Positions 28,221-46,090 of a stretch of 47,480 nt of DNA are shown one piece after another. Origin of the DNA: an uncultured Verrucomicrobiota bacterium (GTDB lineage Bacteria; Verrucomicrobiota; Verrucomicrobiia; Opitutales; Seribacteraceae). Position 1 is the first letter of the stretch. Every line of letters starts with the position of its first letter. The position numbers and the translations under genes are program-made. The DNA is taken from assembly GCA_902618175.1 (NCBI GenBank), contig CACMZN010000014.1, positions 1 through 47,480 of the forward strand. Direction: 5' to 3'. Under the pieces are notes generated by a model, which worked only from the letters and a program-made list of their open reading frames with translations, did not search any database and was not told where the DNA came from.

Positions 28221-31200
28221 ATGAGATTTTTTCTGAAAAGCATTTTATTTTCCATCCTTCGTCGTAAGGTTGTTACCACTTTAACTCTGTTTTCAGGATC
28301 GTTGTTAGATGCAGAGAAATGGATGGATGATTTACAGGACTTGTCCAGTTCTTCACAAAACATATCAATTTCAATTCCTGAATTTGGTAAGATTACCTTT
28401 AACAAGATTCAATCCATACAACATGGGGAAGGTATGGATTTTTCTTGGTCTGGAAAAACAACTGGATCCGAAGAAGCTTTTCTGACCTTTACAAGAATCT
28501 CTCAAATGATCAGCGGATCCCTTACCTTGCCCAACGATTTCAGAAAAATATCTGGATCGATCTTTGCCCCACTTCTCACTAAGACAAGTTCCAATCCTCG
28601 AGCTTGCAAGAGTTGCCTGAAGTCTGGCTCAATTCCGCGAGATCCAAGACGAGCCCTGCAACCTCAACGGAGTTGGCGAAATGGAGATGCCGGACTCATT
28701 GATCTCTTGGTCGTTTACCCACCTTCCGCCGTGGAAGAAGCAGGCAGCATAGATTCGTTGGAAGCGGAAATCCACAAGTCGGTGATCGATGCCAATCTGT
28801 GCTTCCGGAACAGCCAGGTGTTTGCGCAAGTCCGCATCGTGCATCTTGCAGAAGTTGACTACCAACCAACGGGCATTCTCGAAACTGACTTGGGACGACT
28901 TCAGGAGGATGCGGATGGTTACATGGACGAGGTGCATTCGCTGCGTGATGAATACGGGGCCGATCTGGTTTGCCTAATTACTTCGGACAGCGATTCGGGG
29001 GGGTTGGCAAATACCATGTCTCATCCTTCTCTAAATTTCGCGGAAGAAGGATTCAATATTTCGGTTTGGGATCAGATCGCTGCTCCTGATTATACCCTGG
29101 CTCATGAAATCGGTCACAACATGGGTTGCCTGCACAACCGGGAAGACGACGCTTCTGGGGAAGAGTTGTCTCAATACGACTTTAATTCCTTTTCCTTCGG
29201 CAAACGCTGGATCTCGAATGGAATAGGCTATCGCACGGTAATGTCCTACGACGACGATCTGTCAACCTATTCTGAGGGAATTCCGTACTTCTCGAATCCA
29301 TCTGTAAGTTATCTTGGAATCTCCACCGGCAACTTAGATTCGGAAGACAACGCTCAAGTGCTGAGGGCAACAGCTCCCTATGTCTCAAATTTCAGGAGTT
29401 CGGTTGTTCCAGCCATTCTACCTACCGTTTTTTCATTGGAGGTCCCTAAAGGTGATTTCCATTCATTCTCAGTCCGATTGACCGTGCAACCTGAAATATC
29501 CACGACTTGTACGCTCGTCATATCCGATGGATCCGGATTCTCCTTGGGAAGCTCATCCAACCTGATTTTCGATGAAAGCAACTGGAATCTGAACCAACCG
29601 GTACTAATTCATGCATTGATTGATGACCAGAGTGATCAGACATCTGGAATCTTGGAAATCTCCGCTGACGGCATGGAATCCGTCCAGGTGTCTTTGAGCT
29701 CAATCGAACCGGAAATACCGAATGCCGATACTCGTCTTTTTTCAGGCGTTGTAATCAACGAGCTTGGAATAGGAATCTCTGGAGTTGAACTGGAACTTTC
29801 CGAAGGGATGGATAACGTGCAATCTGATGAAAATGGAACTTTCGGAATTCTCCTTCCCGACGACTGGTCAGGAACTGTTACAGTGAGCATGGAAGGACAT
29901 TCCATGTCCCCTTCAAGCTTTGCAATATCCACTACCGATGAGGGAGAATCGGGTATAGTAATTCAAAGCCAGAGATCTTCCGTTCTCTATGTTGATGCGG
30001 ATGCAATTGGAGCAAACGACGGAAGCAGTTGGACCAACGCATATGTCGAACTCCCAGAGGCTCTGCTGGCGAAGGAGTCCTTCTCTGAAATTTGGGTTGC
30101 GGAGGGGACTTACCTCGCTGGTTCCTTTCGTCCCGCATCCTTTCTTTTGCCTCCAAACATTCCCGTTTATGGTGGGTTCGTTGGTAACGAAACATTGCTT
30201 TCCCAAAGGAATGTAGAACTAAATCCAACCATACTAAGTGGTGATTTGGGAACAGCAGGCATACAAGATGACAACTCTTACCATGTCGTCATCCCCTCTG
30301 AAGGTTCGGTGCTGGACGGATTCACGATTCGAGATGGATTCGCCGACCAGAACTTTGCTGACGACGATAGGGGAATTGGTGCCGGTCTTTGGGCGGACGG
30401 AGCTTCTTTTGTCGTGCGTAACTGCACATTCACTGAAAGTCATGCCGAACAGGGAGGAGGGGGTATTTACCTAAAGGATGCGCAAGGCACTTTTACAAAT
30501 TGCATTTTCTCCAATCTACTGACTGGCGAAACGGGTAGTGGGGCGGCTGCCTATCTGGATAATTCCACGGCAATTTTTTCCTATTGTTCCTTTTCCTCCA
30601 ACGATGCTGATTACTTTGGGGGAGCCATCCGATCGGATACATCGATCATCGAAATCAATGATTCTAATTTTACCGCCAATCGCAGCATTAGTTCCAACGG
30701 AGGGGGAGCAATTTATCTCTTTCAAAGTCAATTCTCCATCAATTCCTGCTTTTTCTCCAACAACCAAGCAACCTACCAAGGAGGAGCAATCTACTCGGAA
30801 GAATCCAACGGTACCCTCTACAAATCAACTTTCATGAGCAATTTCAGCACTCAGACCAATGGAGGTGGCGCTCTTTACCTGCAGGGAGGACAAGTTGATC
30901 TTAAAGAAGTTCACGCAGAAGGTAATTCAGCCACTTTTCAAGGAGGAGCTGCTTATTTGGACAATATAATCGGTTCTATATCTGACTCCAATTTCTCAGA
31001 CAACCAAAACACCGAATCCAATGGTGGTGGGGCTCTTTTTCTGCAGGATTGTTCGCCCACGATCATGAATTGTCGATTCATTGAAAACAAAACCTTTGCC
31101 AATGCTTACGGGGGTGCCCTTAAACTTGCCAACTCCACCTCAATCATTTCGAATTGTGAATTTACCGGCAACCAAAACCTTACCAACTCAGGTGGAGCTG

Positions 31201-32768
31201 TCTATGTTGATTCCACTTCTCAACCAACTTTTTCCAACAACAATTTCACCAACAACCAATGTGCGTCAAGTGGCGCTGCCATCTTTGTGGATCAATCCAT
31301 GCTCGTTCTCACGGATAATTCCTTTACCGAAAACATTGCTGCTAGTGGAGGAGCCTTGTATCTATATAATTCAGACAACTCTACCTTGGAAGGCAATGAC
31401 TTCATCCGTAATTCTGCAACTCAATTCGGAGGAGCTATCTTTAACGATCAATCAACCTTAGTTGTGAGGGGTGGAGTTTTTCTCAACAATTTTGGAACCT
31501 ATGGGGGAGCGTTCGCCTCTCAATATTCAGACCAAGTTTCATTTGAAAACATAAAGGCATTCGGAAATGAATCAAACTCATCCAGCGGCGCCAGTGGTGG
31601 GTTCCTTTATGGTGGAGTTGAAAGCTATAAAGTATTGTTCACCAATTGTATCCTTTCAGGAAACAAATCCTCGGGCAGAAACGGTCTCTTTCGTCCATCC
31701 GAAACCACCCGATTCGTGAATTGTACGCTCTATGGAAATTCCGCCCAATCCGAAGGAGGATTGGCGATTCTTTTCTCCGGAAACTCGGTGGAATTGGAAA
31801 ATTGCATCCTATGGAACAATTCAGCGCTCACCGGAAATGATCTCTACAATTACCAGGGCACCTCCATCGTCAGGTATTCGATTTATGATCCGTCTCAATC
31901 CATAGAAGGAGATATCACCGAGGAAGGAAACCTGAATGCCGATCCCCTCTTTTTTGATCCGGACGGAGCGGATGGAGTGCAAGGAACGGCTGATGATGAT
32001 TTTTCACTTCTCAACGAAAGCCCCGCCATCGATTTGGGTTCTTGGTCCGTCAGTGATTTTTCCACTACTGATTTTTCGGGTAATGATAGAACCGGATTTC
32101 CCGACGCAGGTGCTTTGGAATTTCTATCCAATTCAGCTCCGGTATTCCTTTCTTTTTCTTCAACAATTGAAATCAATGAGAATGAGACTAGCGTATTGTA
32201 CTTGGAGGCCATTGATTCCGAAGGTGATTCCCTAAACTTCCTATTAACTGGGGGAGAGGATTCGAATTTGTTCCTCTTTGGAGAATCCACCGGGTATTTG
32301 ACATTCCTGTCCGCTCCGGACTTTGAAAATCCGGAAGATGAAAATGGAGACAATGTCTATGAGTTGTCCATCGGAGTTTCCGATGGTCAATCCACCACCA
32401 CAGCCAATCTTTCCGTGACCGTTCTCGACGTCGACGAAGGACCGGCAAATGCTGATGAAGTGGTGCTTCTTTCAGAAGGAATAGATTCAGGAAGCGGATG
32501 GAAACAAGCCACTTGGTTTGGCATCTATCATTCAACCCACTACCCCTGGATTCATCACGAGAACTTGGGATGGCTCTATCTTTCTCAGGATGAATCCACC
32601 GGTGACCTATGGATGTACGATCAGGAATTGGATTGGATATGGACGACACCCGCGGTCTTTCCTTTCATCTACCTAGACGAACAAAGCAGTTGGGCCTACC
32701 TGCAACTCGATGTCGAACCAGTCAAGATCTACGACTTTAGTGAAGAAACTTGGGACTTCGTCGATTAG
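28221..32768 (+). CDS. Giant secreted metzincin / Pmp-like beta-helix / cadherin protein with Trp-rich C terminus
   Basis: A 1515-aa multidomain protein. Residues 1-31 form an unusual signal-like N terminus with an internal RRK. Residues about 155-395 are a reprolysin-like metalloprotease with zinc motif HEIGHNMGCLH (295-305) and Met-turn TVMSYDD (M341). Residues about 510-580 resemble a carboxypeptidase-regulatory fold (SGVVINELGIGISGVELEL). Residues 588-1298 are a parallel beta-helix opening with LYVDADAIGANDGSSW and ending SPAIDLG...DAGALEF, matching choice-of-anchor Q proteins. About 16 repeats inside carry GG(A/G)(I/L)Y and FxxN. Residues 1307-1412 form a cadherin-like domain (IEINENETSVLYLEAIDSEGD). 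Residues 1426-1515 are the Trp-rich domain shared with three other proteins here. A surface-displayed or secreted adhesin-protease is likely. Confidence 0.9.
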   Translation: MRFFLKSILFSILRRKVVTTLTLFSGSLLDAEKWMDDLQDLSSSSQNISISIPEFGKITFNKIQSIQHGEGMDFSWSGKTTGSEEAFLTFTRISQMISGSLTLPNDFRKISGSIFAPLLTKTSSNPRACKSCLKSGSIPRDPRRALQPQRSWRNGDAGLIDLLVVYPPSAVEEAGSIDSLEAEIHKSVIDANLCFRNSQVFAQVRIVHLAEVDYQPTGILETDLGRLQEDADGYMDEVHSLRDEYGADLVCLITSDSDSGGLANTMSHPSLNFAEEGFNISVWDQIAAPDYTLAHEIGHNMGCLHNREDDASGEELSQYDFNSFSFGKRWISNGIGYRTVMSYDDDLSTYSEGIPYFSNPSVSYLGISTGNLDSEDNAQVLRATAPYVSNFRSSVVPAILPTVFSLEVPKGDFHSFSVRLTVQPEISTTCTLVISDGSGFSLGSSSNLIFDESNWNLNQPVLIHALIDDQSDQTSGILEISADGMESVQVSLSSIEPEIPNADTRLFSGVVINELGIGISGVELELSEGMDNVQSDENGTFGILLPDDWSGTVTVSMEGHSMSPSSFAISTTDEGESGIVIQSQRSSVLYVDADAIGANDGSSWTNAYVELPEALLAKESFSEIWVAEGTYLAGSFRPASFLLPPNIPVYGGFVGNETLLSQRNVELNPTILSGDLGTAGIQDDNSYHVVIPSEGSVLDGFTIRDGFADQNFADDDRGIGAGLWADGASFVVRNCTFTESHAEQGGGGIYLKDAQGTFTNCIFSNLLTGETGSGAAAYLDNSTAIFSYCSFSSNDADYFGGAIRSDTSIIEINDSNFTANRSISSNGGGAIYLFQSQFSINSCFFSNNQATYQGGAIYSEESNGTLYKSTFMSNFSTQTNGGGALYLQGGQVDLKEVHAEGNSATFQGGAAYLDNIIGSISDSNFSDNQNTESNGGGALFLQDCSPTIMNCRFIENKTFANAYGGALKLANSTSIISNCEFTGNQNLTNSGGAVYVDSTSQPTFSNNNFTNNQCASSGAAIFVDQSMLVLTDNSFTENIAASGGALYLYNSDNSTLEGNDFIRNSATQFGGAIFNDQSTLVVRGGVFLNNFGTYGGAFASQYSDQVSFENIKAFGNESNSSSGASGGFLYGGVESYKVLFTNCILSGNKSSGRNGLFRPSETTRFVNCTLYGNSAQSEGGLAILFSGNSVELENCILWNNSALTGNDLYNYQGTSIVRYSIYDPSQSIEGDITEEGNLNADPLFFDPDGADGVQGTADDDFSLLNESPAIDLGSWSVSDFSTTDFSGNDRTGFPDAGALEFLSNSAPVFLSFSSTIEINENETSVLYLEAIDSEGDSLNFLLTGGEDSNLFLFGESTGYLTFLSAPDFENPEDENGDNVYELSIGVSDGQSTTTANLSVTVLDVDEGPANADEVVLLSEGIDSGSGWKQATWFGIYHSTHYPWIHHENLGWLYLSQDESTGDLWMYDQELDWIWTTPAVFPFIYLDEQSSWAYLQLDVEPVKIYDFSEETWDFVD
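30450..31620 (+). repeat. Pmp-like GGA(I/L)Y / FxxN protein repeats
   Basis: About 16 imperfect repeats of roughly 23-25 codons, each with a Gly-Gly-Ala/Gly-Ile/Leu-Tyr/Phe turn (GGGGIYL, FGGAIR, GGGAIYL, QGGAIYS, GGGALYL and others) and an Asn/Phe segment of the FxxN type (CIFSN, CSFSSN, CFFSNN). The pattern is the same as in chlamydial polymorphic membrane proteins. At DNA level the copies are diverged, so recent slippage is not evident. Confidence 0.7.
32496..32768 (+). other. Trp-rich C-terminal domain, copy 1 (full length)
   Basis: Codons for residues 1426-1515 of the 1515-aa protein. Landmarks in order are GWKQATWFG, NLGWLYLS, LWMYDQ, LDWIWTTP, FPFIYLDE, SSWAYLQLD and a terminal TWDFVD. 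Each aligns by eye with copies 2-4 at the same spacing. Confidence 0.8.
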
Positions 32769-32793
32769 ACTGACTCATTTCTTTTGAAGCATT

Positions 32794-33712
32794 CTAATGA
32801 TTGTGGTCCGTGTCATCGGACCCGGTCTCATGAAAAAGGGATTTCAACCACGGAAGAACGAAGCGTTTGGAATAAGAACGCGGCATTTTGTGCCCTCCAT
32901 CTTCAACGTAAGGAGAGTGCTCGAGACCATTGATTTCAACAAAGCTTGGTACAGAATCACAGATTGATTGTAGGGCACAATGGAATCTGCGAGGCCATGA
33001 AAATGATATGCGGTGGATCGTCGGGGTGAAGTTTATAAAATCGGGGAAGCCTGCAAAGCTAATCCTCTGGCGTTCCATACGGGACTGCCGATCAATTGAC
33101 TTTCTGGAGAACCAGACGAAAGGTGTTTGATTGCACTGGGAAAGTCATCCATTCTGAGAAATTCACTTGGTCCAAAGTATTTGAACACTGCCTGAACCCG
33201 GCTGGATTGCTCCAAATGTTTACCTAGATTTCCCTCCAATTCCTCGACGTTTCCGCTTGATCCAAGCATGGAAGCAAGATGTCCACCAGCAGAAGAGCCC
33301 CAAACCGCGATTTGATCAGGATTGGTTCCAAGTTTTTGGGAATTCGCTCGCAACCAACGAATCGCCTCCTTGCAGTCATGAATTTGGTCTGGCCACTTCG
33401 CTTGTCCGCTCAAACGACAGACAATACTGGCCTCAATGAATTTTCCTGTTGATCCCAGTGCAGGCAGACGATCTTAACGCAAACCGCTGCTCTTGTTTCC
33501 CGTCTTCCAACCACCCCATGTATCCAAATCTGATCTCCGAACTCGGATAGAAGGAGGTTCAAGGTCTGCCTTGGGTTACGAGTCCCGGCGTATTTTGCAT
33601 TCTTTTGTAGGGAAAAGGTCTGATCTTCTAAATCTTCTCCTGTCAAAATGAAGTTTGAAAGAAACAGCAGTAAAACAATGCTTCTGCTTTTGTTTGCCGG
33701 CAGGAAAAACAA
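32794..33712 (-). pseudogene. Alpha/beta-hydrolase (esterase/lipase type), multiply frameshifted
   Basis: The remains of one secreted hydrolase are spread over three frames. A start and signal peptide (33712 inward, LLLFLSNFILTGEDL) lead to YAGTRNPRQTLNLLLSE. The frame then shifts near 33510-33525, where the oxyanion segment GGWKTGNKSSGLR appears in another frame and runs into an in-frame TAA (33474-33476). It resumes as ALGSTGKFIEASIVCRLSG and IAVWGSSAGGHL (nucleophile elbow). After ASPIL near 33035 the frame shifts for YKLHPDDPPHIIF, shifts back for HGLADSIVPYNQ, and shifts again for the C-terminal helix ending at 32794. At least four shifts plus a stop make a single functional product implausible. 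Neighbouring genes are intact, so general sequencing error is unlikely. Confidence 0.85.
32805..32822. terminator. Short perfect hairpin after the large secreted gene
   Basis: GGTCCG and CGGACC form a 6-bp stem around a 6-base loop, 36 bp after the stop at 32768 and inside the 3' end of the converging pseudogene. No uridine run follows on either strand, so it is at best a weak bidirectional terminator. Confidence 0.25.
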
Positions 33713-33722
33713 GGGGCAGCAA

Positions 33723-35450
33723 CTACTGTACTCCTAAGTTGGAAGCTTGGTTAATGATCTTCATGAGAAGAGGAAAATCGAATTCATCATTTTCTTCATT
33801 GGGCAAATCCGGCCATTTTGACAAATCTTCCAATATATCCTCATCTCCTATTTCAAATTTTGAAAGAGTGAAGTTCCCAAAGCGAAGAGTTGATAAATAT
33901 CCTGCAAGATCGAGAGAAAATTCGGCTTTTATGGGATTTGAATTCATTGGATCAAGTAATCGGATGGGATATGAAGTGCCGGAATCAATAGGATTCGCTG
34001 AGAGCAACCACATCCCCTTACGAGCAAGCAAATGGGAAAGTAGAACGTCACGACCCTTGTTGGTGGAAAGATAAGGATTCTCCAACAAATAACCGGTCTC
34101 CTTCACCAGATCGGCAAAGGAAGAAGAAAAGTTCAAATTAAATGAATAACTAAATATGCCCGTGGATATGTCTCTCTTTATGGAAAAGCGTGGAATGGGA
34201 ACGACGCCCGGTTCTGAAAAGGTCAAAATCTTGTCTAGGTTTGGACCCATCAAAGCGGAGTTCTCCTGATTCGTACGATAAGCCAAACGAAGGTCGTTAT
34301 CCACAAATAATTGTATTTCGATTTTCTCTAGGGATTTGGAAATTCCAAGATGTACTTTAATTTCAGATTCTTTATCGTCTCCGCTTCCATTAAACCATCT
34401 GGATTTGATCAATAGAGAATCTCCTCCCTTCTCAATCAAATCATAAGCTTTTCCGATGGAATCCAAAAACAACGATTTACGATTTTCCATGAATTCCAAG
34501 CCATTGGCAAATGACTTTGCATTCTTCGCCCATTTTCCCTGATCGTCACTCACAGCATTTTCAGGAGTCGACTTAAGAGTTTTGATGGCTGAATCCGTAT
34601 CCTCATCCAGGTGTTGAGCAAATCCTAGAAAAGTTTGATGACGGGCTGAATTACGGTTTTTTTCGGGCAGGGATTCAATTAACTTCATGGCTTCCGATGG
34701 ATTGGGATCATCACCAAACAAGTTCTGAATGATCTTCAGCTCGATCACCTCCTCCGACAAAACCTCCACCTCATTCAATTGAGCAAGGTAAAAAGCCTTG
34801 GCGAAATCTGCATCAGCTCCACTTATTCCGGACAGGAATTTTAGTTTCTCCAAAGAATCACCTTCTCTGAAAACGATTTTAAGCACTTTTCCTGTGGAAG
34901 TGTTTGTTTCGGCAATCTCTCTCAAAACTTCGCTAACAGCCGAAGTAATTTCATCAACCTCGGCTTTTTGGGCCAGAAGATAGGCCTGCAGACGAAGCGA
35001 TGAATCCTTCAATAATTCAGAACCCTGTGAGCGTGCGATGAACAAGATGGATCTGCAGAAAGCAAGAGCAAACTCTTCGTCGGCAAGATCCCCTGTCATC
35101 GCTTTTTCCTTGAGCAGTTGAACCAATCGACCCGAACCTCGTTCAAAGGAACTGAGGAAATAAAGAGAAGGCAGACTATTCGTATAGTCAAAGAGAAGAT
35201 GACTCGTTGCCTTGTTCAAAGCATTTATGTCTTGAGCAGCTTTTGCCACCATGAAGTAGTCCATTGCAAGTCTGGGAGCTTCAACGTCATGCGGTTTGGA
35301 TTCGAGAAATTTTTCGGCTGCCCTGAGAAAACCTCTGAAGTCGGAATCCTTGAGATAGTCTTCGTAGAAGGGAATTCGATCCCCGGCCATCGTCCAAAAA
35401 GGAAATGAGGTGAGAAAAAAGATCGAAAAAAAGATTCTCCGTAAATTCAT
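33723..35450 (-). CDS. Secreted protein of unknown function with helical (TPR-like) N-terminal half
   Basis: A 575-aa exported protein (signal peptide about 1-23, ending WTMA before GDRI). The N-terminal half (about 25-320) is helical and shows TPR-like stretches (FRGFLRAAEKFLESKPHDVE, LAMDYFMVAKAAQDINALNK, EAMKLIESLPEKNRNSARHQ). The C-terminal half has beta-rich segments (RFSIKRDISTGIFSYSFNLN, YLSTLRFGNFTLSKFEIGDE). I recognise no enzyme motif. The frame extends to 35504, overlapping hemL. The ATG at 35450 is preferred because it starts a proper signal peptide. It lies 50 bp after hemL and ends 10 bp before the hydrolase pseudogene, so it may once have headed an operon with it. Confidence 0.8.
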   Translation of the reverse strand: MNLRRIFFSIFFLTSFPFWTMAGDRIPFYEDYLKDSDFRGFLRAAEKFLESKPHDVEAPRLAMDYFMVAKAAQDINALNKATSHLLFDYTNSLPSLYFLSSFERGSGRLVQLLKEKAMTGDLADEEFALAFCRSILFIARSQGSELLKDSSLRLQAYLLAQKAEVDEITSAVSEVLREIAETNTSTGKVLKIVFREGDSLEKLKFLSGISGADADFAKAFYLAQLNEVEVLSEEVIELKIIQNLFGDDPNPSEAMKLIESLPEKNRNSARHQTFLGFAQHLDEDTDSAIKTLKSTPENAVSDDQGKWAKNAKSFANGLEFMENRKSLFLDSIGKAYDLIEKGGDSLLIKSRWFNGSGDDKESEIKVHLGISKSLEKIEIQLFVDNDLRLAYRTNQENSALMGPNLDKILTFSEPGVVPIPRFSIKRDISTGIFSYSFNLNFSSSFADLVKETGYLLENPYLSTNKGRDVLLSHLLARKGMWLLSANPIDSGTSYPIRLLDPMNSNPIKAEFSLDLAGYLSTLRFGNFTLSKFEIGDEDILEDLSKWPDLPNEENDEFDFPLLMKIINQASNLGVQ

Positions 35451-35500
35451 GAACAAAATTATTTCTTCCCTATTCCCAAATCTTGTCAACGGAAACTCCA

Positions 35501-36781
35501 TCAAATGGATCCAAAGGCAGATTCAATCTTTTCCAAAGTCTGGTTAATTTCCTTTTCCTGATGAGCTGAGCTGAGAAAACAAGTTTCGTAGGAAGAGGGA
35601 GGAAGATAAACACCTTGTTCAAGAAGTTTTTGAAAAATAGATTGAAAACGATCGTGACGAGATTCGATCGCACCGTCGAATTCCGTAACTTCAACTTCGG
35701 AAAAAAAGAGACAGAACATGGATCCCGCTTGAGGAACCTGTAAGGCAATGTCACGAGTTTTGGCAATCTGTCTGATTCCATCTGCCAGAAGCATTCCCAT
35801 TTTCTCCAAATGTTCGTAGGGTGGAGAATCCCGCAACATTTTGAGAGATGCAATGCCAGCGGCCATAGCCAGAGGATTGCCACTCAAGGTGCCAGCTTGG
35901 TAAACCGGACCCAGAGGAGCCAAATAATCCATGATCTCAGCTTTGCCTCCAAGGGCACCCACTGGCAGTCCACCCCCGATGATCTTGCCCATGGCGCATA
36001 AATCCGGTATCACACCCGTTCTTTCCTGCACTCCACCGATACCCAATCTGAAGCCAGTCATCACCTCGTCAAAAATCAAAACCGAACCCTTCTCGGAGCA
36101 TATCTTCCGGAGTCCCTCCAGGAAACCGGGCTTGGGGAGAATGAAACCGCAATTGGCGGGGTAGGGTTCAACAATGATTGCCGCAATTTGGTTACTCGAA
36201 TCTTTGAAGGCAGCCTCCACGGCAGACAAATCATTGAAGGGCAGAACAATGGTTTCCTGAGCCAAGCTCTTCGGTACTCCTGCGCTGTCCGGATTGCCCA
36301 AAGTCAAAGCACCAGATCCTGCCTTTACCAACAAACTGTCCACATGTCCGTGGTAGCATCCGGCAAATTTGATGATTTTGGACCGTCCGGTGAATCCACG
36401 AGCCAATCGAATGCAGGACATGGTTGCCTCTGTTCCGCTATTGCACATGCGAACCTTCTCAACTGATGGAACCACCTCAACCAATAACTCAGCCATCTCT
36501 ACTTCCGCAGGTCCAGGAGTGCCAAAGCTGGTGCCTCGATCAAGCGCTTGGGCGACTGCCTCACGAACCACGGGATGATTATGTCCGTGAATGGCCGGAC
36601 CCCAAGTGCATACGTAATCGATCAATTCCTGGTTATCCGCTGTGAACAACCGGCAACCCTCGGCACTCTTGGTAAAAAAGGGAGTGCCCCCGACGGATCG
36701 AAAAGCACGAACGGGTGAATTCACTCCACCCGGAATAAGAGCTTTTGCCCGATCGAACAAATTGTTGGATTCAAAATTCAT
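35501..36781 (-). CDS. hemL: Glutamate-1-semialdehyde 2,1-aminomutase
   Basis: HemL converts glutamate-1-semialdehyde to 5-aminolevulinate in the C5 route to heme, a PLP-dependent step in the cytoplasm. The 426-aa protein is normal length. Motifs: [17 protein letters not shown] at the N terminus, NSGTEATM (cofactor phosphate loop, about 114-121), FDEVMTGFR (about 237-245, PLP pyridine contact) and the Schiff-base lysine K266 in [29 protein letters not shown] follows as expected. It is 9 bp downstream of nadE on the same strand, so the two are likely co-transcribed. Confidence 0.96.
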
Positions 36782-36790
36782 AAGAAGGGA

Positions 36791-38410
36791 TTAGTTTTGG
36801 TATTTTTGCACGATGGGAAGACGTCTGCCCACACCGAAGGCAAGGGGCGTTGTCTTCAGACCAGGCGCTGCTTGGTTGCGTTTGTATTCGTTTAGATCAA
36901 CCAAGCGAACGATTTGACGTACGATCGCTTCATCATGACCAAGTTCAAGAATGCCGGATATGGAACGAGACTGTTCTATGTAAAGATTGAGAATTTCATC
37001 CAGAATTTCGTAATCAGGCAAGGAATCACTGTCCTTTTGATCAGGCCGCAATTCGGCAGAAGGTGGTTTTTCAATGGTATGAAGTGGAATTACGATACGA
37101 TCACGATTCAAATGCCTGGCCAAGTCGAACACCTGCGTCTTGGACACGTCGGAAATGACTGCCAATCCTCCGCACATGTCTCCGTATAAAGTACAGTATC
37201 CAACGGCTAGTTCGCTCTTGTTGCCGGTTGTCAGTAGGAGTGCTCCGAACTTGTTGGAAATTGCCATCAGAAGCAAACCCCGACTCCTCGCCTGCAGGTT
37301 TTCCTCAGTGACGTCAACCGGACGATCTTCAAACAAGGGCTTCAACTCTTCCGTGGCAGAATCCACAATTGATTGTATGGGTAGAGTATGGAATGCAATG
37401 TTCAGGTTTTCCGCGAGATGCCGAGCATCATCCTTACTGTGATGACTGGAAATGGAAGAAGGCAGGCTTACTCCTGTGATTCTGTCTGCTCCCAAAGCCT
37501 CCACTGCAAGGGCGGCAGTCACCGCCGAGTCAATACCCCCACTCAATCCGATCAATGCCCTCGAGAATCCGCTTTTTCGCGCGTAGTCACGAATTCCCAG
37601 CACTAATGCTCGGCGCAAGTTTTCCATTTTCTCGAATTTCGGAGACAGTTCACTTTGGGTGTCACAAATATCATGAACTTCCACACATTCTTGAAAGCAA
37701 TTCGATCGTTCAAGCAGGGTTCCGTCTGAATTTAAAGTCATGGACGCACCGTCGAAGATCAATTCGTCGTTCCCGCCCACGGCGTTGACATAGGTGACAG
37801 GACACCCAACTTTTTCCGCCACTTCCCTAAGCAACTCAAATCTTTGCTCTTCTTTTCCCATAAACCATGGACTAGCGGATAGATTGATCAGGAAATCCGG
37901 ATGTGCTGCGGCAATTTCATCAACTGGATCTTTTGGATATCGTGCGCAAGTGGTATTCCAAATGTCCTCACAAATGGTGACTGCAAACTTCTTCCCATGG
38001 TAGGTATGAAACATGGGGTGTTCCCCTTTGGTGAAGTACCGCTCCTCGTCAAACACATCATAGGTTGGAAGCAGACGCTTTCGGAAAACCCTTTCCATTT
38101 TTCCCTCCACGCACCAAGCGGCGGAGTTGTAGATAAAATCTTCTTTCTCTACTTCCTGTTCCGGAAATCCGATTAAGGCGGGCACCGGACCAGTCTGCTG
38201 AGTGAAATCCATTAGAACGGCATGGGCGTCTTCCAGAAATTTTTCCTTATGCAACAAATCACGAGGCGGGTATCCGCATAGAAACAATTCGGGATACAAT
38301 ACCAAATCCGCTCCCTGTCCAACCATTTGCTCGTAGGCATCAATTGCCAACGACAAATTGCCTGACAAATCACCTACCGTTGGATTTAATTGTGCAATTC
38401 CCACTCTCAT
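36791..38410 (-). CDS. nadE: NAD+ synthase, glutamine-hydrolysing
   Basis: A 539-aa two-domain enzyme making NAD+ from nicotinate adenine dinucleotide, ATP and glutamine. The N-terminal nitrilase-type glutaminase has its catalytic Glu-Lys-Cys as E41 (YPELFLCGYP), K111 (FRKRLLPTYDVFDE) and C147 (VTICEDIWN). The C-terminal synthetase has the PP-loop SGGIDSA (290-296) and TGNKSELAVGY. The frame extends to 38452, but the ATG at 38410 gives MRVGIAQLNPTVGD, the standard N terminus. It diverges from maf over 43 bp and is followed by hemL. Confidence 0.96.
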   Translation of the reverse strand: MRVGIAQLNPTVGDLSGNLSLAIDAYEQMVGQGADLVLYPELFLCGYPPRDLLHKEKFLEDAHAVLMDFTQQTGPVPALIGFPEQEVEKEDFIYNSAAWCVEGKMERVFRKRLLPTYDVFDEERYFTKGEHPMFHTYHGKKFAVTICEDIWNTTCARYPKDPVDEIAAAHPDFLINLSASPWFMGKEEQRFELLREVAEKVGCPVTYVNAVGGNDELIFDGASMTLNSDGTLLERSNCFQECVEVHDICDTQSELSPKFEKMENLRRALVLGIRDYARKSGFSRALIGLSGGIDSAVTAALAVEALGADRITGVSLPSSISSHHSKDDARHLAENLNIAFHTLPIQSIVDSATEELKPLFEDRPVDVTEENLQARSRGLLLMAISNKFGALLLTTGNKSELAVGYCTLYGDMCGGLAVISDVSKTQVFDLARHLNRDRIVIPLHTIEKPPSAELRPDQKDSDSLPDYEILDEILNLYIEQSRSISGILELGHDEAIVRQIVRLVDLNEYKRNQAAPGLKTTPLAFGVGRRLPIVQKYQN

Positions 38411-38453
38411 CACAATTCCATTTTGCAAGATTTCCTCATAAGCTAAGTTCAAT

Positions 38454-39074
38454 ATGCAAATTAAGACTGAAAAAGCGAACTCGAAGGATTATCCTTTCTT
38501 TATTTTGGGGTCTGGATCCCCACGCAGAAAAGAGCTGTTGTCTGAAATCATTATTGATTTCCAGGTAATTCCATCAAAAGCGGAAGAAATCCAATCTCAC
38601 CCAGGAGGACCGCTAGCCCTAGTGGGAGAAAACGCCCGATTAAAGGCATGGGAAGTCGCCCGTAGATATCCCCAAAGTTGGGTCTTGGGAGCTGATACCA
38701 TGGTTTGGATCGGCAAGAAGATACTGGGCAAACCCAAAGACAAGCAGGACGCATTCGACATGCTCAAGCTTCTTTCCGACAAAACCCATTCGGTTAGTAC
38801 CGGAGTTGCTTTGATCTGTAAATCCGAAGGATTTGAAAAAAGCTTAGTGGAAACCAGCCAGGTCACCTTTAAACTTTTATCTGACAAGACCATTAAGTTA
38901 TATTTCCAAATGGTGGATCCGTTGGACAAAGCTGGAGCTTACGCCATACAAACCAGAAGCGATCTCATAATCAAATCTTTCGATGGTTCCAAATCCAACG
39001 TCATCGGACTGCCCACGGAAGCCCTTTATGATTTTTGGCCTTCATCCATCGAACCGATTCTCAGATGGCACTAA
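38454..39074 (+). CDS. maf: Maf/YhdE-family nucleoside triphosphate pyrophosphatase
   Basis: A 206-aa Maf protein that hydrolyses non-canonical or pyrimidine nucleotides to monophosphates, a housecleaning role. LGSGSPRRKELL (18-29) is the diagnostic N-terminal motif. GENARLKAWEVA, VLGADTMVWIGKKILGKPKD and the C-terminal YAIQTRSDLIIKSFDGSKSN and VIGLP complete the family pattern. The substrate subgroup was not resolved. It diverges from nadE (43 bp) and ends 76 bp before the following secreted-protein gene. Confidence 0.93.
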   Translation: MQIKTEKANSKDYPFFILGSGSPRRKELLSEIIIDFQVIPSKAEEIQSHPGGPLALVGENARLKAWEVARRYPQSWVLGADTMVWIGKKILGKPKDKQDAFDMLKLLSDKTHSVSTGVALICKSEGFEKSLVETSQVTFKLLSDKTIKLYFQMVDPLDKAGAYAIQTRSDLIIKSFDGSKSNVIGLPTEALYDFWPSSIEPILRWH

Positions 39075-39150
39075 ATCTCTCTTTTTCCCATCTGCAGTTC
39101 TTATCCAATAAATTCTTTTACCTTCGATGGAATGGCTGTTATGTTAAGGT

Positions 39151-40497
39151 ATGATTCCTAAATTGAAAAACTTATCGATATTCACTCTGAAGCTTTTCTT
39201 TGGATCACTCATTGCTTTTGGTCAAGTTCCAGAGAATTGGGATCTGTATTCTTCATATTCCAACGGTTCCTTGGTTATTCACGAAGGCGTCGCCTACCTT
39301 GCCCAACAGGAGTTACCCGCAGGATCTCCTGCCCCCGGAACGGATGCAATGTCCTGGATGAGCTTGGACGAACTGGTTCCAACCTCTGCTCCCACTTCCT
39401 CTCCCCCCACCACTACTCCAGACATCGGTTCAGCACCCTCTGACTCACCTCCTGAATCCACGGATGATGTTGTGGAAGACAATGTCACCGAAGAAGATGA
39501 GGTGATTGAAGAGGATTTGACTGAAGATACGGATATTGGCGAAGAGAATTTGCTGCCTGACGAATGGGACTTGCTTCTAAGCTATTCCATGGGTTCCCTT
39601 GTCCTTTTTGATGGGACTTCTTACCTTGCTTTTCGGGAAGTGCCCACCGGCGTGTCCATAGATTCCAAGGAATATTGGATTTCTCTCGATGAATCAATCC
39701 CTTCGGACGTTCCCGGAGATGCCCCGATCGAAGAGATCGACCTTTCCACCATACCGGGAGAAATCCCACTCGAGGAAGAAAACCTCTCTTACGTACTACA
39801 GGTTTTTGCCGGTTCGAATGGCCTCGCAGATGGAAATGGAACCTATGAATACGGAACCAATGCTGAATTATATGCATCTGCCGATCCGGGATATGTCTTC
39901 ACCGGATGGTCAGGTGATGCTTCCGGGGAAAGCTCATCTTTGTCCCTGGTCATGGATATGGATAAGGTCGTATATGCCAGTTTTTCGCCCGATTTGGATG
40001 ATTTTGACCAAGACGGTCTTAGTAACTATGACGAATTTGTACTATATAATACCGATCCCTATGATTCCGACGCCGATCTCGATGGCTTGACTGATGGGGA
40101 GGAGATCGAATTTGGACTGGATCCGAGAATCTCCAATCACTCTCTCATCGAATTTATCGCCCAGAGATCAAGCGACGGCACACCCTATAGTTCAAGTGAT
40201 GCGTACGAAGAGGGTAAAATGGAAGTCATGAACAACCCTGCCAACTATTCTCTGATTTCCATTCATGATCACGCCAGCATGTTGACGGACGCCTTTACCA
40301 TACAGAACCAGAGTGCCACACTTTACACCGCCGGTTGGTTCTTCATCGAAGACCGGGGGTGGCTCTATTCCGACCCATCTTTCTTTCCGTATTTCTTCGA
40401 CATAACGAGCGAAGGCTGGCTCTATTTCAAATCAGGCAGAGAAAAACCGACCTTCTACGACTACTCTACCGGTCTCTGGATGCAGTTCGAATATTGA
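39151..40497 (+). CDS. Secreted protein with tandem CBM5/12-like modules, InlB-like repeat and Trp-rich C terminus
   Basis: A 448-aa exported protein (signal peptide about 1-24). Two similar modules, about 30-73 (WDLYSSYSNGSLVIHEGVAY) and 138-179 (WDLLLSYSMGSLVLFDGTSY), have the W-x-x-x-x-x-Y-x-x-G-x-x-V-x-x-x-G-x-x-Y-x-A...W pattern of chitin-type carbohydrate-binding modules. They are joined by Thr/Pro/Ser-rich and Asp/Glu-rich linkers. Residues about 215-279 resemble a divergent InlB B-repeat (NAELYASADPGYVFTGWSGD). Residues 281-326 are Asp-rich calcium-binding repeats (DFDQDGLSNYDEF, DADLDGLTDGEE). Residues about 395-448 are a half-length Trp-rich domain. No catalytic site is visible, so it is probably a surface binder of polysaccharide. 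Confidence 0.85.
   Translation: MIPKLKNLSIFTLKLFFGSLIAFGQVPENWDLYSSYSNGSLVIHEGVAYLAQQELPAGSPAPGTDAMSWMSLDELVPTSAPTSSPPTTTPDIGSAPSDSPPESTDDVVEDNVTEEDEVIEEDLTEDTDIGEENLLPDEWDLLLSYSMGSLVLFDGTSYLAFREVPTGVSIDSKEYWISLDESIPSDVPGDAPIEEIDLSTIPGEIPLEEENLSYVLQVFAGSNGLADGNGTYEYGTNAELYASADPGYVFTGWSGDASGESSSLSLVMDMDKVVYASFSPDLDDFDQDGLSNYDEFVLYNTDPYDSDADLDGLTDGEEIEFGLDPRISNHSLIEFIAQRSSDGTPYSSSDAYEEGKMEVMNNPANYSLISIHDHASMLTDAFTIQNQSATLYTAGWFFIEDRGWLYSDPSFFPYFFDITSEGWLYFKSGREKPTFYDYSTGLWMQFEY
40333..40497 (+). other. Trp-rich C-terminal domain, copy 2 (half length)
   Basis: Codons for the last 54 residues of the CBM-like protein: GWFFIEDRGWLYSD, FFPYFFD, EGWLYFK and FYDYSTGLWMQFEY. It aligns with the second half of copies 1 and 3 (LDWIW...FPFIY...SSWAYLQ...TW). 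Confidence 0.75.
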
Positions 40498-40516
40498 ATC
40501 TGATTTCCTTCCCTGT

Positions 40517-40783
40517 TCAATCCACCACCCAAGACCCGGAGGTAAAATGCCAGAAGGTTCTGGATTTCGATTTGATTTGGAAAAAAGACCAGGATTGCCT
40601 CTCCGACACCCATAGATAAGGAAAAATCGAAGCGTTTGTCCAACACCACTTGAGAACCGGATCAAAGAGCCAAATCGAATCAAGCGACGAGGGAACACCG
40701 TACATCCATCCAAGTCCAAAATGATATTTCCATCCTGAATTCGTGGAAAGAAAAGATCCAAACCAGCCGAGTTCATACCAACC
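40517..40783 (-). other. Trp-rich C-terminal domain, copy 3 (full length)
   Basis: Codons for residues 493-580: GWYELGWFGSF, SGWKYHFGLGWMYG, SIWLFDP, LKWCWTNA, FPYLWVSE, QSWSFFQIK and a terminal GSWVVD. Same landmarks and spacing as copies 1 and 4. Confidence 0.8.
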
Positions 40784-42259
40784 GTTGCCAAGATCCAAAC
40801 TTGAGGATTTCAAAGCATCCGCATGCTCTTTTTCAATGGATGAAGAATCTGGTTCCAGTACCAATAATCCAACACCGAACGCTTCATCCGTGACAGAGAA
40901 AAGCTTGCCATCCGCCAGTATCGAAAGATATTCGCAGGCAGAGGACAGGGTAGGTTCTCCTTCCGGAGAGAGGAAGGAATCCACCCTTTGCCAAACCTTG
41001 TTACCCTGATCATCAAACTTTGTGATCATTCCTCTCCAATCACTTCTTGGATCAGTCTCGCATTCCTCCAGAATGGAAATCCTCGTTTCATTGGAATCAG
41101 TTCCCTGCCAAGGGTCACATCCTTCAATTCCAGTCCCGCTGGCCACAATCATTCCTCCATCCTCAGTAGATTGAATTCCCCAACTTTCGTCGTAGATCAA
41201 CTTGGGGTTTCCGGCTCCCAAACCGGAAAATTTATCCACACCTCCCACAGGGTTACCGAATTCGCGGGTCCAGACAAGAGTGCCATTCAAATCCAAAACG
41301 GTGAGAAAGGAGTCAAGTACTCCTGAGGATTTCTCACCGTGTCCACAAAAAGCCAACCCACTTTTTTTACCCCATCTGCTCAGGACGCACAAGTCGGTGG
41401 GTTCACCACGGGTTGGATAGGATTTGCTCCATAAAACACCTCCCTGGGCATCAAGTCTCTTGAGAATTGCTTCATGAGGATATTCGGCCGCAGAAGTAAG
41501 GAGTACAAACTCACCAGTCTGACCCAGTGGCCTGATTGCTTTCACGGTGAGGGAATCAGAAAAATCGATCCGCCAAGACGGTGCGGTAGGCGCACTCGAA
41601 GCAGAAAGGAGTGAAGGGCTGTAATAAGCGACAAAAGCGTTTCCACTTGATGGATTTCCATAGGATTTGAATCCCTCAAGCCCTCCACGATAGGCATTGC
41701 TTACACCCCCCGTAATCAACCCCCCTTCGGGAGTTGAGTGGACGACTTCGTAAGCGGAGGAAAGTCCGCTTTTGGATTCGCTTACTACATGCTCCCAATC
41801 CACTTTTCCGGAAAAGGAATCGACTTTGAGCAAACAAGCATCCTCGCTCCCATCGCTAACGCCCTTAAAACCTACAAGAAAACTTGCCGAACCTACTTCC
41901 GCCACCTGGTTGAACCCATCCTGCCTGCCCGCACTTCCCAAGGATATACTCCACGACCAAGAAGCCTCTTCTGCTTCGGCAGGGGAGGGTAGGTATAGGT
42001 ATCCCGACCAGTTTTCCGGCATAACTTTTAGGGCAAACGCATCGCTCGACCCACCACCGTCCATGTGTTTCCCCACCACCATATATCCTCCATCGGAGAT
42101 TCCGATCCCATGCACCGCATGCGGATCTTCCCCGATTCCATCTTCCCCAATCCCTGCATAAAAAATAATGCCCGGAGCATTGGGACTGACTCCGGAATTA
42201 GCTTCAACAAAACAGATGCCTAACAACAGCAAAATGTAGCTTAGCCCTAAGTTCCTCAT
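40517..42259 (-). CDS. Secreted delta-60-like beta-propeller protein with Trp-rich C terminus
   Basis: A 580-aa exported protein (signal peptide about 1-20). The body (about 25-480) consists of about six propeller-like units of the type D-G-G-x-(I/M)-x-x-G ... D-x-x-(L/A)-x-K-x-D-x-x-G-x-x-x-W: ISDGGYMVVGKHMDGGG, ACLLKVDSFSGKVDWEH, TPEGGLITGG, ILKRLDAQGGVLWSKSY, LTVLDLNGTLVWTREFG and STEDGGMIVASG with ITKFDDQGNKVWQRV. Such repeats occur in many exported proteins of unknown function. Residues 493-580 are the full-length Trp-rich domain. It is convergent with the CBM-like gene (19 bp between stops) and lies 88 bp downstream of the third cluster member. Confidence 0.85.
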   Translation of the reverse strand: MRNLGLSYILLLLGICFVEANSGVSPNAPGIIFYAGIGEDGIGEDPHAVHGIGISDGGYMVVGKHMDGGGSSDAFALKVMPENWSGYLYLPSPAEAEEASWSWSISLGSAGRQDGFNQVAEVGSASFLVGFKGVSDGSEDACLLKVDSFSGKVDWEHVVSESKSGLSSAYEVVHSTPEGGLITGGVSNAYRGGLEGFKSYGNPSSGNAFVAYYSPSLLSASSAPTAPSWRIDFSDSLTVKAIRPLGQTGEFVLLTSAAEYPHEAILKRLDAQGGVLWSKSYPTRGEPTDLCVLSRWGKKSGLAFCGHGEKSSGVLDSFLTVLDLNGTLVWTREFGNPVGGVDKFSGLGAGNPKLIYDESWGIQSTEDGGMIVASGTGIEGCDPWQGTDSNETRISILEECETDPRSDWRGMITKFDDQGNKVWQRVDSFLSPEGEPTLSSACEYLSILADGKLFSVTDEAFGVGLLVLEPDSSSIEKEHADALKSSSLDLGNGWYELGWFGSFLSTNSGWKYHFGLGWMYGVPSSLDSIWLFDPVLKWCWTNASIFPYLWVSERQSWSFFQIKSKSRTFWHFTSGSWVVD

Positions 42260-42347
42260 CCTAAAGGAAGGAGAAAGATTCTCCCGAAGAAGAGCAAGGG
42301 AAATTCAAGAATGAAAGAAGCAAAAGGAGCCTCAGGCATTCCGATAG

Positions 42348-42587
42348 CTAGCTTGGGGTGTACCAAGTACCCGCATTGATCTGGTAATATTTCCAATGTT
42401 GACCATGATCGAACCAGGTCCATGGATAAGTGGAATGGGTGGCCCACAACCAACCATGGTTTGAAGAATAAAACCAGAAAGAATCAAAGGCACTGGCTAC
42501 CGGATAAACCCATCCGTGATCCAGGTGATAGAGCCAACCGCCGGATGAGGCGTAATAATACCCAAACCAATCGAGTGAGTGCCATCC
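42348..42587 (-). other. Trp-rich C-terminal domain, copy 4 (full length)
   Basis: Codons for residues 396-474: GWHSLDWFGYYY, GGWLYHLDHGWVYP, SFWFYSS, HGWLWATH, YPWTWFDH, QHWKYYQIN and a terminal GTWYTPS. Relative to copies 1 and 3, about nine residues are missing before the last Trp. Confidence 0.8.
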
Positions 42588-43772
42588 GCCACCCAAATCA
42601 GAACCTGCGGTGGAAAAGTCTGCATGACTAACAGAAGATATCTCATCCAAAGTGTCACTCCCTACAGCAAAAGTCAGGGTTTCTGGTTTAAATGAAGAAA
42701 TAACAAAGCTTTCTGTACTGGAAAAGGCTTCATTGAGATAACCCAAGTCATTCGAAAATTCTGCATCGATGATACTTGCTAAATTGGTTCTTTCGAGAGG
42801 GTTCTCGCCAAAGCTAAAGTGAAAAGCGGGTCGATCAAAGGTAAAGATTGAACTTAGTCCCGAATCCAAACTGCCTTCAATGAACGTACGCCAGTTTCCA
42901 TCCATATCTTCATCAATTTCAGCAATAAATTGCTTACCCTCAGCCTTAAAGTGGGCACGTAATTTAGTTTTTTTACTCCAGTCTTTGGAAGAAGAGTTAA
43001 TTAAATTCCAATCCATATACAGCTCGTCAAAACCAGTATTAAATGGGCTCCATCTGTACCTGGCAAATATACTTGAAGAACCAGAGATTTGCGCATAGTA
43101 CCCTCCTTCTGAAGAACCTACAATAATTAAAGAATCATCAGAGGAGAAATCACTCATCCACTCTCCCGACCAATTTTGATATGTTGGTATAGTGTATCTA
43201 AACCAATATCTTGTCGTAGAGTTTTCGTCGACATCCTCTGAAAGTAACCAGTCGGATTGATCATTATAAATACCGGTGGTAACCGGAGTTGGCAAAGTGG
43301 GCTTTGTATCCAAAAGCTCAATTTCAATTTTTCCGACAATACCATGAGGGTTTTGACCATCCGAACGATGCCCTGCGAGATTTATTACTGGATAAAAGGT
43401 TCCAGTTGCTTTTTTGTCGTTTATCATGACGACTGACGCTTTCCAAAAACTTAATTTGGGAAGCTGCATCCAATAATCCAATTCGAACTTATTCGGATAT
43501 GTTTTGTTGTATGTAAAGAAAATTTGCTTATGCATGTGCTCCTTATTGAAACCCAGATACATTGAACCGTTTTCAACATATGCATACGATAGTTCTCTAA
43601 TGCTTGGAATGGTGAAAGTCTCATTTCCATCCAAGATAATTTCCATTTCCTCATTTTCGGTAATAACTTTGAGAAAAATACCCTCCAAGGAGTCAGGTGC
43701 CCAATCGGCGGCACGCCCGAAAGAAAAAAGGGTAAAGACACAGAAAGTTAGAAACAATGAATACTTTTTCAT
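42348..43772 (-). CDS. Secreted protein of unknown function with Trp-rich C terminus
   Basis: A 474-aa exported protein (signal peptide about 1-21, ending GRA before ADWAPD). Residues about 22-380 are beta-rich and aromatic and contain segments such as YLGFNKEHMHKQIFFTYN, ATGTFYPVINLAGHRSDGQ and GEWMSDFSSDDSLIIVG. I recognise no family. The pattern of a value measured twice (lengths about 150 each) might reflect two beta-sandwich domains, but this is a guess. Residues 396-474 are the full Trp-rich domain. It begins 61 bp after the DjlA-like gene on the same strand and precedes the propeller protein by 88 bp. Confidence 0.82.
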   Translation of the reverse strand: MKKYSLFLTFCVFTLFSFGRAADWAPDSLEGIFLKVITENEEMEIILDGNETFTIPSIRELSYAYVENGSMYLGFNKEHMHKQIFFTYNKTYPNKFELDYWMQLPKLSFWKASVVMINDKKATGTFYPVINLAGHRSDGQNPHGIVGKIEIELLDTKPTLPTPVTTGIYNDQSDWLLSEDVDENSTTRYWFRYTIPTYQNWSGEWMSDFSSDDSLIIVGSSEGGYYAQISGSSSIFARYRWSPFNTGFDELYMDWNLINSSSKDWSKKTKLRAHFKAEGKQFIAEIDEDMDGNWRTFIEGSLDSGLSSIFTFDRPAFHFSFGENPLERTNLASIIDAEFSNDLGYLNEAFSSTESFVISSFKPETLTFAVGSDTLDEISSVSHADFSTAGSDLGGGWHSLDWFGYYYASSGGWLYHLDHGWVYPVASAFDSFWFYSSNHGWLWATHSTYPWTWFDHGQHWKYYQINAGTWYTPS

Positions 43773-44600: not shown

Positions 44601-46013
44601 TTACTTATTCTCCTTTTTCCCTATGGAATAAGCTGATTTGGGATCATATTTAGGATTTGGCTCGCTGGGTACGGGTGCCTTGACTTCTTTGCGCCATGCA
44701 AGCATGACCTGGTGCATTTCCCTGGTCTTTTCTGGCATTTGCCCGGCTAAATTAATGGTTTCTGCGAGATCGTTCTTGGTATCATAGAGTTCAAGGATTC
44801 CATCCTCGAAGAATTCGATCAATTTCCAATCTCCCATCCGCACGGCGGCCGCCGGAGTGGTACGAAAATCTTCCGGTCGCTTGACGCTGCCTTGAAGATA
44901 AGCAGGGAAATGCCAATGTATGGCCCTGCGTTTCAAGCGAGCATCACTCTCTTTCAGCAAGGGCATCAAGCTGATTCCGTCAAGTGTGTAATTTTTTGGC
45001 GCCGGAGTACCGGTGGCTTCGAGCAGCGTGGGATAAAAATCGATTCCAATGACGTTTTCTCGGCAGATTGAACCCGGCTTGGTAACGCCGGGCCACTTGA
45101 CGATCATTGGTTCGCGTATGCCTCCCTCGTACAACATGCCCTTAGATCCGCGAAGGGGTGAGTTGGATGTGACTGGGCCATGACCACCGTTGTCCGAGAA
45201 AAATAGAACGATGGTGTTTTCTGACAAATCCAGTTCCTCAAGTTTGGCCAACACCATCCCCACGCTGTCATCGGTACTCTCTATCATGGCGGCATAAGCC
45301 GGGTTATTGTGGCGATCGGTGGCTTTCTTGCGCTGATATTTCTTAATCAATTCTTCCTTCGCCTCAATGGGTGTATGAACCGCATAATGTGTGAAGTAGA
45401 GGAAGAAGGGCTTGTCTTTGCATTGTTCTATGAATTTGCAGGCTTCCCTACCCAAACGGTCGGTCAGGTATTCGCCTTTGTTCTTCTGTTCGAGATTAGG
45501 ATATTTGTAAGGGCTATGGTATCCGCCGCCACTCGGGCTTCCCCACTGCTTGCCCGCCACATTGAAGTCGAAGCCTTGTGTCGTGGGATCTTTCCCGAGA
45601 TGCCATTTGCCGATGGTCGCTGTGACGTATCCTGCAGCTTGTAGGGATTCCCCCAAAGTGACGAATTCGTCCGCCAGATGTATGGTATTCCTTATTGGAA
45701 TGAGCTTCCGGTGCTTGGCTGATCCGCGATCCGAGTTGTTCACCGTATAGATGCCATGCCTGGGAGTATATTGACCGGACATCAGACAAGCCCGACTGGG
45801 AGCACAGTTGGGAGCGGCAGCGTAGGCATTCATAAAGACGGTTCCCTCGCTTGCCAGGCGATCAATGTGAGGACTCTCGTAGTATTTGGATCCCATGAAG
45901 CCAAGATCCGTCCAACCAAGATCGTCGATGAAGAAAAAAACCACGTTGGGTTTGGCTTTGAGGCTAAAAGAAATGATTACCAGCAAACAAAGACTTGTGA
46001 TTCGTACAAACAT
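44601..46013 (-). CDS. Secreted sulfatase (family S1, formylglycine-dependent)
   Basis: A 470-aa sulfatase with signal peptide (about 1-20, ending LKA before KPNVV). Metal ligands D30-D31 lie in FFFIDDLGWTDLG. The formylglycine motif is C70-A-P-S-R74, followed by ACLMSGQYTPRHG. TIGKWHLGKDPTTQGFD, FFSDNGGHG (second metal Asp-Asn) and LRGSKGMLYEGGIREPMI are classic arylsulfatase/N-acetylgalactosamine-sulfatase blocks. It probably removes sulfate from algal or animal polysaccharides outside the cytoplasm. The start ATG at 46013 replaces a longer frame to 46064 because it begins the signal peptide. It is co-directional with, and 5 bp from, the DjlA-like gene. Confidence 0.94.
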   Translation of the reverse strand: MFVRITSLCLLVIISFSLKAKPNVVFFFIDDLGWTDLGFMGSKYYESPHIDRLASEGTVFMNAYAAAPNCAPSRACLMSGQYTPRHGIYTVNNSDRGSAKHRKLIPIRNTIHLADEFVTLGESLQAAGYVTATIGKWHLGKDPTTQGFDFNVAGKQWGSPSGGGYHSPYKYPNLEQKNKGEYLTDRLGREACKFIEQCKDKPFFLYFTHYAVHTPIEAKEELIKKYQRKKATDRHNNPAYAAMIESTDDSVGMVLAKLEELDLSENTIVLFFSDNGGHGPVTSNSPLRGSKGMLYEGGIREPMIVKWPGVTKPGSICRENVIGIDFYPTLLEATGTPAPKNYTLDGISLMPLLKESDARLKRRAIHWHFPAYLQGSVKRPEDFRTTPAAAVRMGDWKLIEFFEDGILELYDTKNDLAETINLAGQMPEKTREMHQVMLAWRKEVKAPVPSEPNPKYDPKSAYSIGKKENK

Positions 46014-46090
46014 GATCCAAAGCCAAAAAGGTAATGGGATAACCGTCAAACTCGATTCCTTCACAAGAACCGAAAAAAACTTTCAGTCAA

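Follow-up and report, generated by a model that had tools for sequence, protein, structure and literature searches.

We examined a 47,480-nucleotide window (contig CACMZN010000014.1 of assembly GCA_902618175.1, positions 1 to 47,480) from an uncultured Verrucomicrobiota bacterium of the order Opitutales, in which four genes for exported proteins share a Trp/Tyr-rich C-terminal domain that we call the aromatic tail. The first gene (28221 to 32768, plus strand) encodes a 1,515-amino-acid protein with a reprolysin-like metallopeptidase, a right-handed beta-helix, and a full-length tail of five hairpins (32490 to 32765, plus strand). The second (39151 to 40497, plus strand) encodes a 448-amino-acid protein with a weak match to the carbohydrate-binding module (CBM) family CBM5/12, an InlB B-repeat, and a half-length tail of three hairpins (40318 to 40494, plus strand). 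Two minus-strand genes at 40517 to 42259 (580 amino acids) and 42348 to 43772 (474 amino acids) encode proteins in which no Pfam family was found; the former ends in a full-length tail (40520 to 40792, minus strand) and the latter in a copy shortened at its end (42351 to 42596, minus strand, model positions 2 to 77 of 95). The hairpin numbers of the two plus-strand copies come from predicted structures.

A hidden Markov model (HMM) built from 78 tail copies, none taken from the window, matched the four carriers and no others among 939 window reading frames at E ≤ 1, with E values of 6.9e-25 (28221-32768), 3.4e-24 (40517-42259), 5.2e-18 (42348-43772), and 4.2e-10 (39151-40497). This result bears out a first-pass annotation, made from the sequence alone, which had proposed a shared Trp/Tyr-rich ending in these four proteins. 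The half copy of 39151-40497 aligns with the second half of the domain, as that annotation had also claimed (positions 40 to 93 of the window-free model), and corresponds to the last three hairpins of the full-length domain; a half-length HMM made from four half copies outside the window matched it with an E value of 1.7e-16. Reversed frames with their composition kept (939 from the window and 6,729 from other loci, 7,668 in all) gave no match at E ≤ 1, and the tail similarity is therefore not a composition effect. The remainders of the carriers were labeled with mixed success. A Pfam scan confirmed the metzincin and beta-helix labels of 28221-32768 as reprolysin and beta-helix. The CBM-like label of 39151-40497 was upheld in part, since a CBM_5_12 match is present but lies under the Pfam cutoff (20.7 versus 26.2 bits), and a divergent InlB B-repeat in the same protein exceeds its cutoff. 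The propeller label of 40517-42259 was not confirmed, with no Pfam match at E ≤ 1. The claimed signal peptides agree with a crude test, by which all four proteins have signal-peptide-like starts.

The tail domain comprises about 90 residues arranged as five Trp/Tyr-rich beta-hairpins with an internal repeat of about 20 residues. The consensus of 83 alignment rows (15 from alignment A1 and 68 from alignment A6, with two window copies present in both) reads dLGGGWkeSSWFGsFyptssGWIYHadLGWLYsssdssdSIWLWdEeLGWLWTgegvYPYLYrdsdsnWLYFdkgssgprrFYDYSTgSWekl. Within it, the unit WIYHadLGWLY recurs 20 positions later as WLWdEeLGWLWT, and the self-match score at offset 20 was 17.1, versus a maximum of 13.2 over 500 column shuffles. 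A later repeat pair at offset 21 scored 11.4, between the 95th and 99th shuffle percentiles. Strand positions 30, 32, 43, 45, 51, 53, 61, 63, 70, and 72 are aromatic in 0.90 to 1.00 of the 83 rows, and positions 23, 31, 42, 52, 62, and 71 are aliphatic in 0.67 to 0.93; with this alternation within most strands, Trp and Tyr appear to line one face of the sheet. Positions 73 and 82 break the alternation, being mostly aromatic as well (0.73 and 0.78). Positions 22 to 30 of the conservation table are biased because the search pattern for the loci had selected that motif. The 15 copies from the window's own genome, aligned before any motif selection, have nine invariant columns (W9, W14, W33, W45, W53, W55, W72, F15, and G16), with W25 and H28 nearly invariant. 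In the 83-row alignment, several Trp/Tyr positions are conserved at 0.95 to 1.00 across otherwise diverged copies.

AlphaFold2 gave confident models of both forms of the tail. The full tail of 28221-32768 (68 sequences; predicted local distance difference test score [pLDDT], 94.6; predicted template modeling score [pTM], 0.82) was modeled as ten short strands, which we read as five hairpins. The 60-residue half tail of 39151-40497 (36 sequences; pLDDT, 88.0; pTM, 0.71) was modeled as six strands, or three hairpins, and is predicted to fold alone. This variable hairpin count suits an open repeat module. Foldseek found no match at E ≤ 0.001 against the PDB for either the full model (best E, 0.67) or the half model (best E, 3.3), nor against the BFVD viral models for the full model (best E, 1.1). 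Foldseek may overlook small repeat folds, and a new fold for the aromatic tail is possible on these models.

By sequence comparison, the family appears to lack a name in the libraries that we searched (Pfam, NCBIfam, PHROGs, and PDB sequences), in line with the earlier claim that no named family fits. Pfam scans of the tails (15, 5, and 68 members) returned weak matches only, the best with an E value of 0.0044. Over all these libraries, the best single-member matches were to DUF4123 (E, 0.0044), YPYG_dom (E, 0.0049), and Aq_1974-like (E, 0.0095). NCBIfam at E ≤ 1 returned three families for the 68 members, one member each (best, YPYG_dom; E, 0.0049), the best E value in PDB-sequence searches was 0.48, and a PHROGs scan of three of the four window proteins gave no convincing match to the tail. 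The commonest weak Pfam match was OCRE, in 8 of the 68 members (best E, 0.033), and WW matched one member (E, 0.17). OCRE and WW domains are mainly eukaryotic and intracellular; the likeness of the tail to these aromatic beta modules is a weak match in rhythm, and neither match is significant. We found no title or abstract describing the domain, which is weak evidence of absence because most subscription papers were not covered.

C-terminal modules common to exported proteins are already known from the PEP-CTERM, GlyGly-CTERM, and MYXO-CTERM systems and from type IX secretion. The first three are described as a homology region shared at the C terminus by many unrelated exported proteins within a genome (PMC1569441, PMC3237569, PMC11980579). 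None of the tail sequences contains a C-terminal transmembrane helix followed by basic residues, and the all-beta model agrees. PEP-CTERM-type tags consist of a short motif, a transmembrane helix, and a basic end, whereas the tail is predicted to be a folded, soluble, all-beta domain that lacks a hydrophobic helix. What is new is a family absent from the searched libraries that differs from these tags as a folded domain with a variable number of hairpins. The type IX C-terminal domains (CTDs) of Bacteroidota are beta domains borne by dozens of unrelated signal-peptide carriers, and the tail resembles them in its C-terminal location, its length of about 80 to 100 residues, its beta fold, and its dozens of unrelated signal-peptide carriers per genome, but it is not always terminal. 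No type IX tail family was among the NCBIfam matches of the 68 members at E ≤ 1. Choline- and glucan-binding repeats are aromatic hairpins of about 20 residues that occur in variable number on surface proteins. The tail shares this aromatic beta-hairpin repeat, its variable number, and its occurrence on surface proteins, but the hosts are Gram negative and the tail comes in units of five or three hairpins. The choline-binding likeness noted in the first-pass annotation thus stood as a rhythm and did not extend to a Pfam match or to a solved structure in Foldseek at E ≤ 0.001. Among the matches listed, cell-wall-binding repeat families of the choline type were absent for the 15, 5, and 68 members, as was the Listeria-type GW module for the 68 members at E ≤ 1.

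We determined where the tail lies in 161 copies with a known stop codon, which are not fully independent because some loci are orthologues from related genomes. In this set, the distance from the end of the copy to the stop is at most 12 residues for 132 copies, 13 to 30 for 8, and more than 30 for 21. The corresponding counts were 18, 1, and 4 of 23 in the window's own genome; 68, 3, and 8 of 79 in the loci outside the Deltaproteobacteria (67 Verrucomicrobiota by title plus L096); 8, 0, and 5 of 13 in G390; 7, 0, and 2 of 9 in G037; 7, 1, and 2 of 10 in G211; and 8, 3, and 0 of 11 in G056. Seven of the 21 nonterminal copies lie, by eye, directly behind a signal peptide (L158, L184, three paralogues in L186, L193, and L218), and others lie inside proteins or before further sequence. 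The C-terminal location is a strong bias and not the fixed position that had been claimed. In L158 (7404-9602), two neighboring genes differ in where the module sits: the thioredoxin-like protein ends in it, whereas in the DUF3179-like protein it comes right after the signal peptide. In the three-paralogue array of L186 (2899-7749), one of the proteins also has a CxxCH haem-binding-like motif. The last 125 or so residues of the carriers in L123 and L135 show a variant architecture, with an InlB-repeat-like stretch behind the tail and then a few terminal residues common to both, AELLIFG.

The carriers are diverse and of kinds typical for exported or surface proteins. Among 54 complete carriers, a Pfam scan (51 families in all, with counts drawn from the 25 listed) found cadherin repeats in 11, TSP3 in 6, laminin-G-like domains in 4, reprolysin in 4, InlB-type repeats in 3, pro-kumamolisin in 3, subtilase, beta-helix, and PQQ propeller in 2 each, and FGE-sulfatase and DUF3179 in 1 each. 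By eye we also recognized a thioredoxin-like protein (L158), a cyclophilin-like protein (L238), a CxxCH protein (L186), a DUF1800-like protein (L193), and FGE-sulfatase-like proteins (L218 and L219). Signal-peptide-like starts, by the same crude and permissive test, were present in 44 of 53 carriers versus 190 of the 417 remaining frames at these loci (Fisher P, 1.5e-7), and in 48 of 58 in a larger set that included the window's four. Together with the profiles and the offset-20 test, these scans support the earlier description of a modular, mostly C-terminal domain with aromatic repeats of about 20 residues on otherwise unrelated exported proteins.

The window's own genome (2.03 Mb, 67% complete) had 24 matches to the full-length profile at E ≤ 1, of which 21 were at E ≤ 1e-5. 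The tail was present in 41 of 57 genomes examined. These 41 comprise all 37 members of the window's family (own genome included), each with 3 to 37 matches, and 4 of the 20 genomes that represent other families of the order. With at most 13 candidates scored per genome, a class-wide draw found it in 8 of 384 genomes, all of the same order, and a phylum-wide draw found it in 8 of 387, including two that do not belong to the order and have few, weaker matches; both counts include the own genome. The half-length profile matched 4 of 286 genomes from the class and added no carrier to those already known, and two scans of viral contigs gave 0 and 1 related locus (L096). In a same-genus genome, G015, tails lie at practically the same contig positions as in G697, the genome of L176. 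A scan of a species-genome collection gave 180 related loci, and the best 80 of them were by title 67 from Opitutales, Opitutia, Opitutae, or Verrucomicrobia and 13 from four metagenome-assembled genomes (MAGs) of Deltaproteobacteria/Syntrophobacteraceae. These four MAGs have 16, 9, 5, and 7 tail copies and are among the 6 carriers found in 97 genomes near one of them. A tree of 125 copies, built from few columns, has a branch (support, 88; not starred) with the 16 Deltaproteobacteria copies to one side of it. This pattern of sequences suits, without proving, a single transfer followed by spread within the genome. Contamination of the MAGs is less likely, given copies on many contigs in all four, two more nearby genomes, and the grouped tree branch.

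We favor the reading that the tail is a module for noncovalent retention at the cell surface, with a probability of roughly 0.45. In this view, the tail folds independently into an all-beta set of aromatic hairpins (usually five, sometimes three), is attached to proteins that are exported through a signal peptide, and would hold these carriers at the outer cell surface by binding noncovalently to one of the polymers in the cell's own envelope. One candidate ligand is a surface polysaccharide, which the aromatic residues of the tail may contact. The unrelated exported carriers, the aromatic face, the variable hairpin number, and the occurrence in both positions fit retention at the envelope, and placement behind a signal peptide or inside proteins is as expected for a binding module. 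Several observations weigh against this reading. The C-terminal bias exceeds what simple binding needs, and all 16 Deltaproteobacteria copies are terminal. Wall-binding modules often occur in tandem, and of some 160 carriers only the one in L228 has two copies, which lie in tandem. Of the 58 complete frames, 10 were negative in the signal-peptide test, several of these near threshold or fragment-like. A sulfotransferase-like protein (by eye) in a Deltaproteobacteria MAG (L155, 9572-10897, minus strand) has no signal peptide and a somewhat degenerate terminal tail, and it appears from its sequence to be cytoplasmic, an exception to a simple rule of secretion. A second exception, also from a Deltaproteobacteria MAG (L100, 6462-8282), glycosyltransferase-like by eye with multiple membrane spans, has a C-terminal tail that is presumably on the periplasmic side. 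The terminal bias and single copy fit a sorting signal at least as well as retention, which is why we go no higher than 0.45.

As a sorting signal, the folded tail would be recognized by a dedicated outer membrane machine for export or attachment, as a type IX CTD is, and we regard this as the strongest competitor, albeit a less likely one. It would account for the 132 of 161 copies near the stop, for the uniformly terminal Deltaproteobacteria set, for the nearly invariable single copy per protein, and for 3 to 37 matches per genome on unrelated carriers in the examined family. However, 21 copies end over 30 residues short of the stop, including seven right behind a signal peptide, and the hairpin number varies. 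The machine itself did not emerge either, and the transporter or sortase suggested by the first-pass annotation was not found in limited tests of flanks, exosortase, and SprA_N. We saw no shared sorter-like neighbor in flanks of up to 8 kb; the commonest neighbor cluster was sulfatase-like by eye (16 proteins in 12 of 81 loci examined), and the other common neighbors represented one orthologous region. SprA_N, a marker of the type IX translocon, was found in none of the 57 genomes, but it was also found in none of 14 control genomes, so its absence carries little weight. Exosortase was found in 38 of the 57, including some without a tail, and not in tail-bearing G000 (67% complete) or G033 (91% complete, 5 tails), although incomplete genomes can hide genes. 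In two genomes of one genus (L242, 7838-10262; L243, 7776-15173), the gene for a short exported protein with a tail has an exosortase gene immediately upstream; in L243, the tail gene is followed by one for a large surface protein, laminin-G-like by eye. A model made from this pair found no exosortase in the flanks of the related tail genes L142, L163, L120, and L156, and exosortase stretches of two other genomes (L244 and L245) have no tail. We regard exosortase as an unlikely partner because this adjacency was not repeated in the related flanks examined and exosortase also occurs in tail-less genomes. A bolder form of the sorting idea, which we consider rather improbable, would make the tail the substrate signal of a novel secretion or surface attachment machine of the Opitutales group and, by horizontal transfer, of a Deltaproteobacteria lineage, a signal read as a folded aromatic and possibly new beta fold.

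The tail could instead be a CBM that targets secreted enzymes to outside glycans as their substrate, such as polysaccharides from algae or detritus, but we find this doubtful. Glycan binding typically involves an aromatic sheet face, and the putative Trp/Tyr-lined face, the sulfatase-like neighbors in 12 of 81 loci, and the carriers that are enzymes or have CBM-like or laminin-G parts would all suit it. However, no CBM family was among the Pfam matches of the 68 tails, and many carriers are not polysaccharide enzymes (proteases, DUF3179, and, by eye, thioredoxin-like, cyclophilin-like, CxxCH, and DUF1800-like proteins). Least probable is a general stability, adhesion, or self-association cap that ends large exported proteins without a specific ligand, which would suit the all-beta aromatic fold and the varied carriers, but the Trp/Tyr positions conserved at 0.95 to 1.00 suggest a defined structural or binding role, of which a purely structural one would also explain them.

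The tail profile gives a handle on the exported proteome of the mostly uncultured Opitutales, since across the 37 family genomes one profile returns 3 to 37 matches in each, many on otherwise unannotated proteins. If retention is its role, the tail would mark cell-surface proteins and provide a new anchor for display on Gram-negative cells; under the sorting reading, there would be a secretion system yet to be discovered. Because the tail also occurs in a second phylum, a partner gene can be sought by comparison. Two other observations concern the surroundings of tail genes. In the window, a gene that is sulfatase-like by eye (44601-46064, minus strand) lies close to the three clustered tail genes. 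On contig C16 of G000 (L238), the exported cyclophilin-like protein carries a half tail, and a nearby 290-residue frame has a half-like module near its N terminus.

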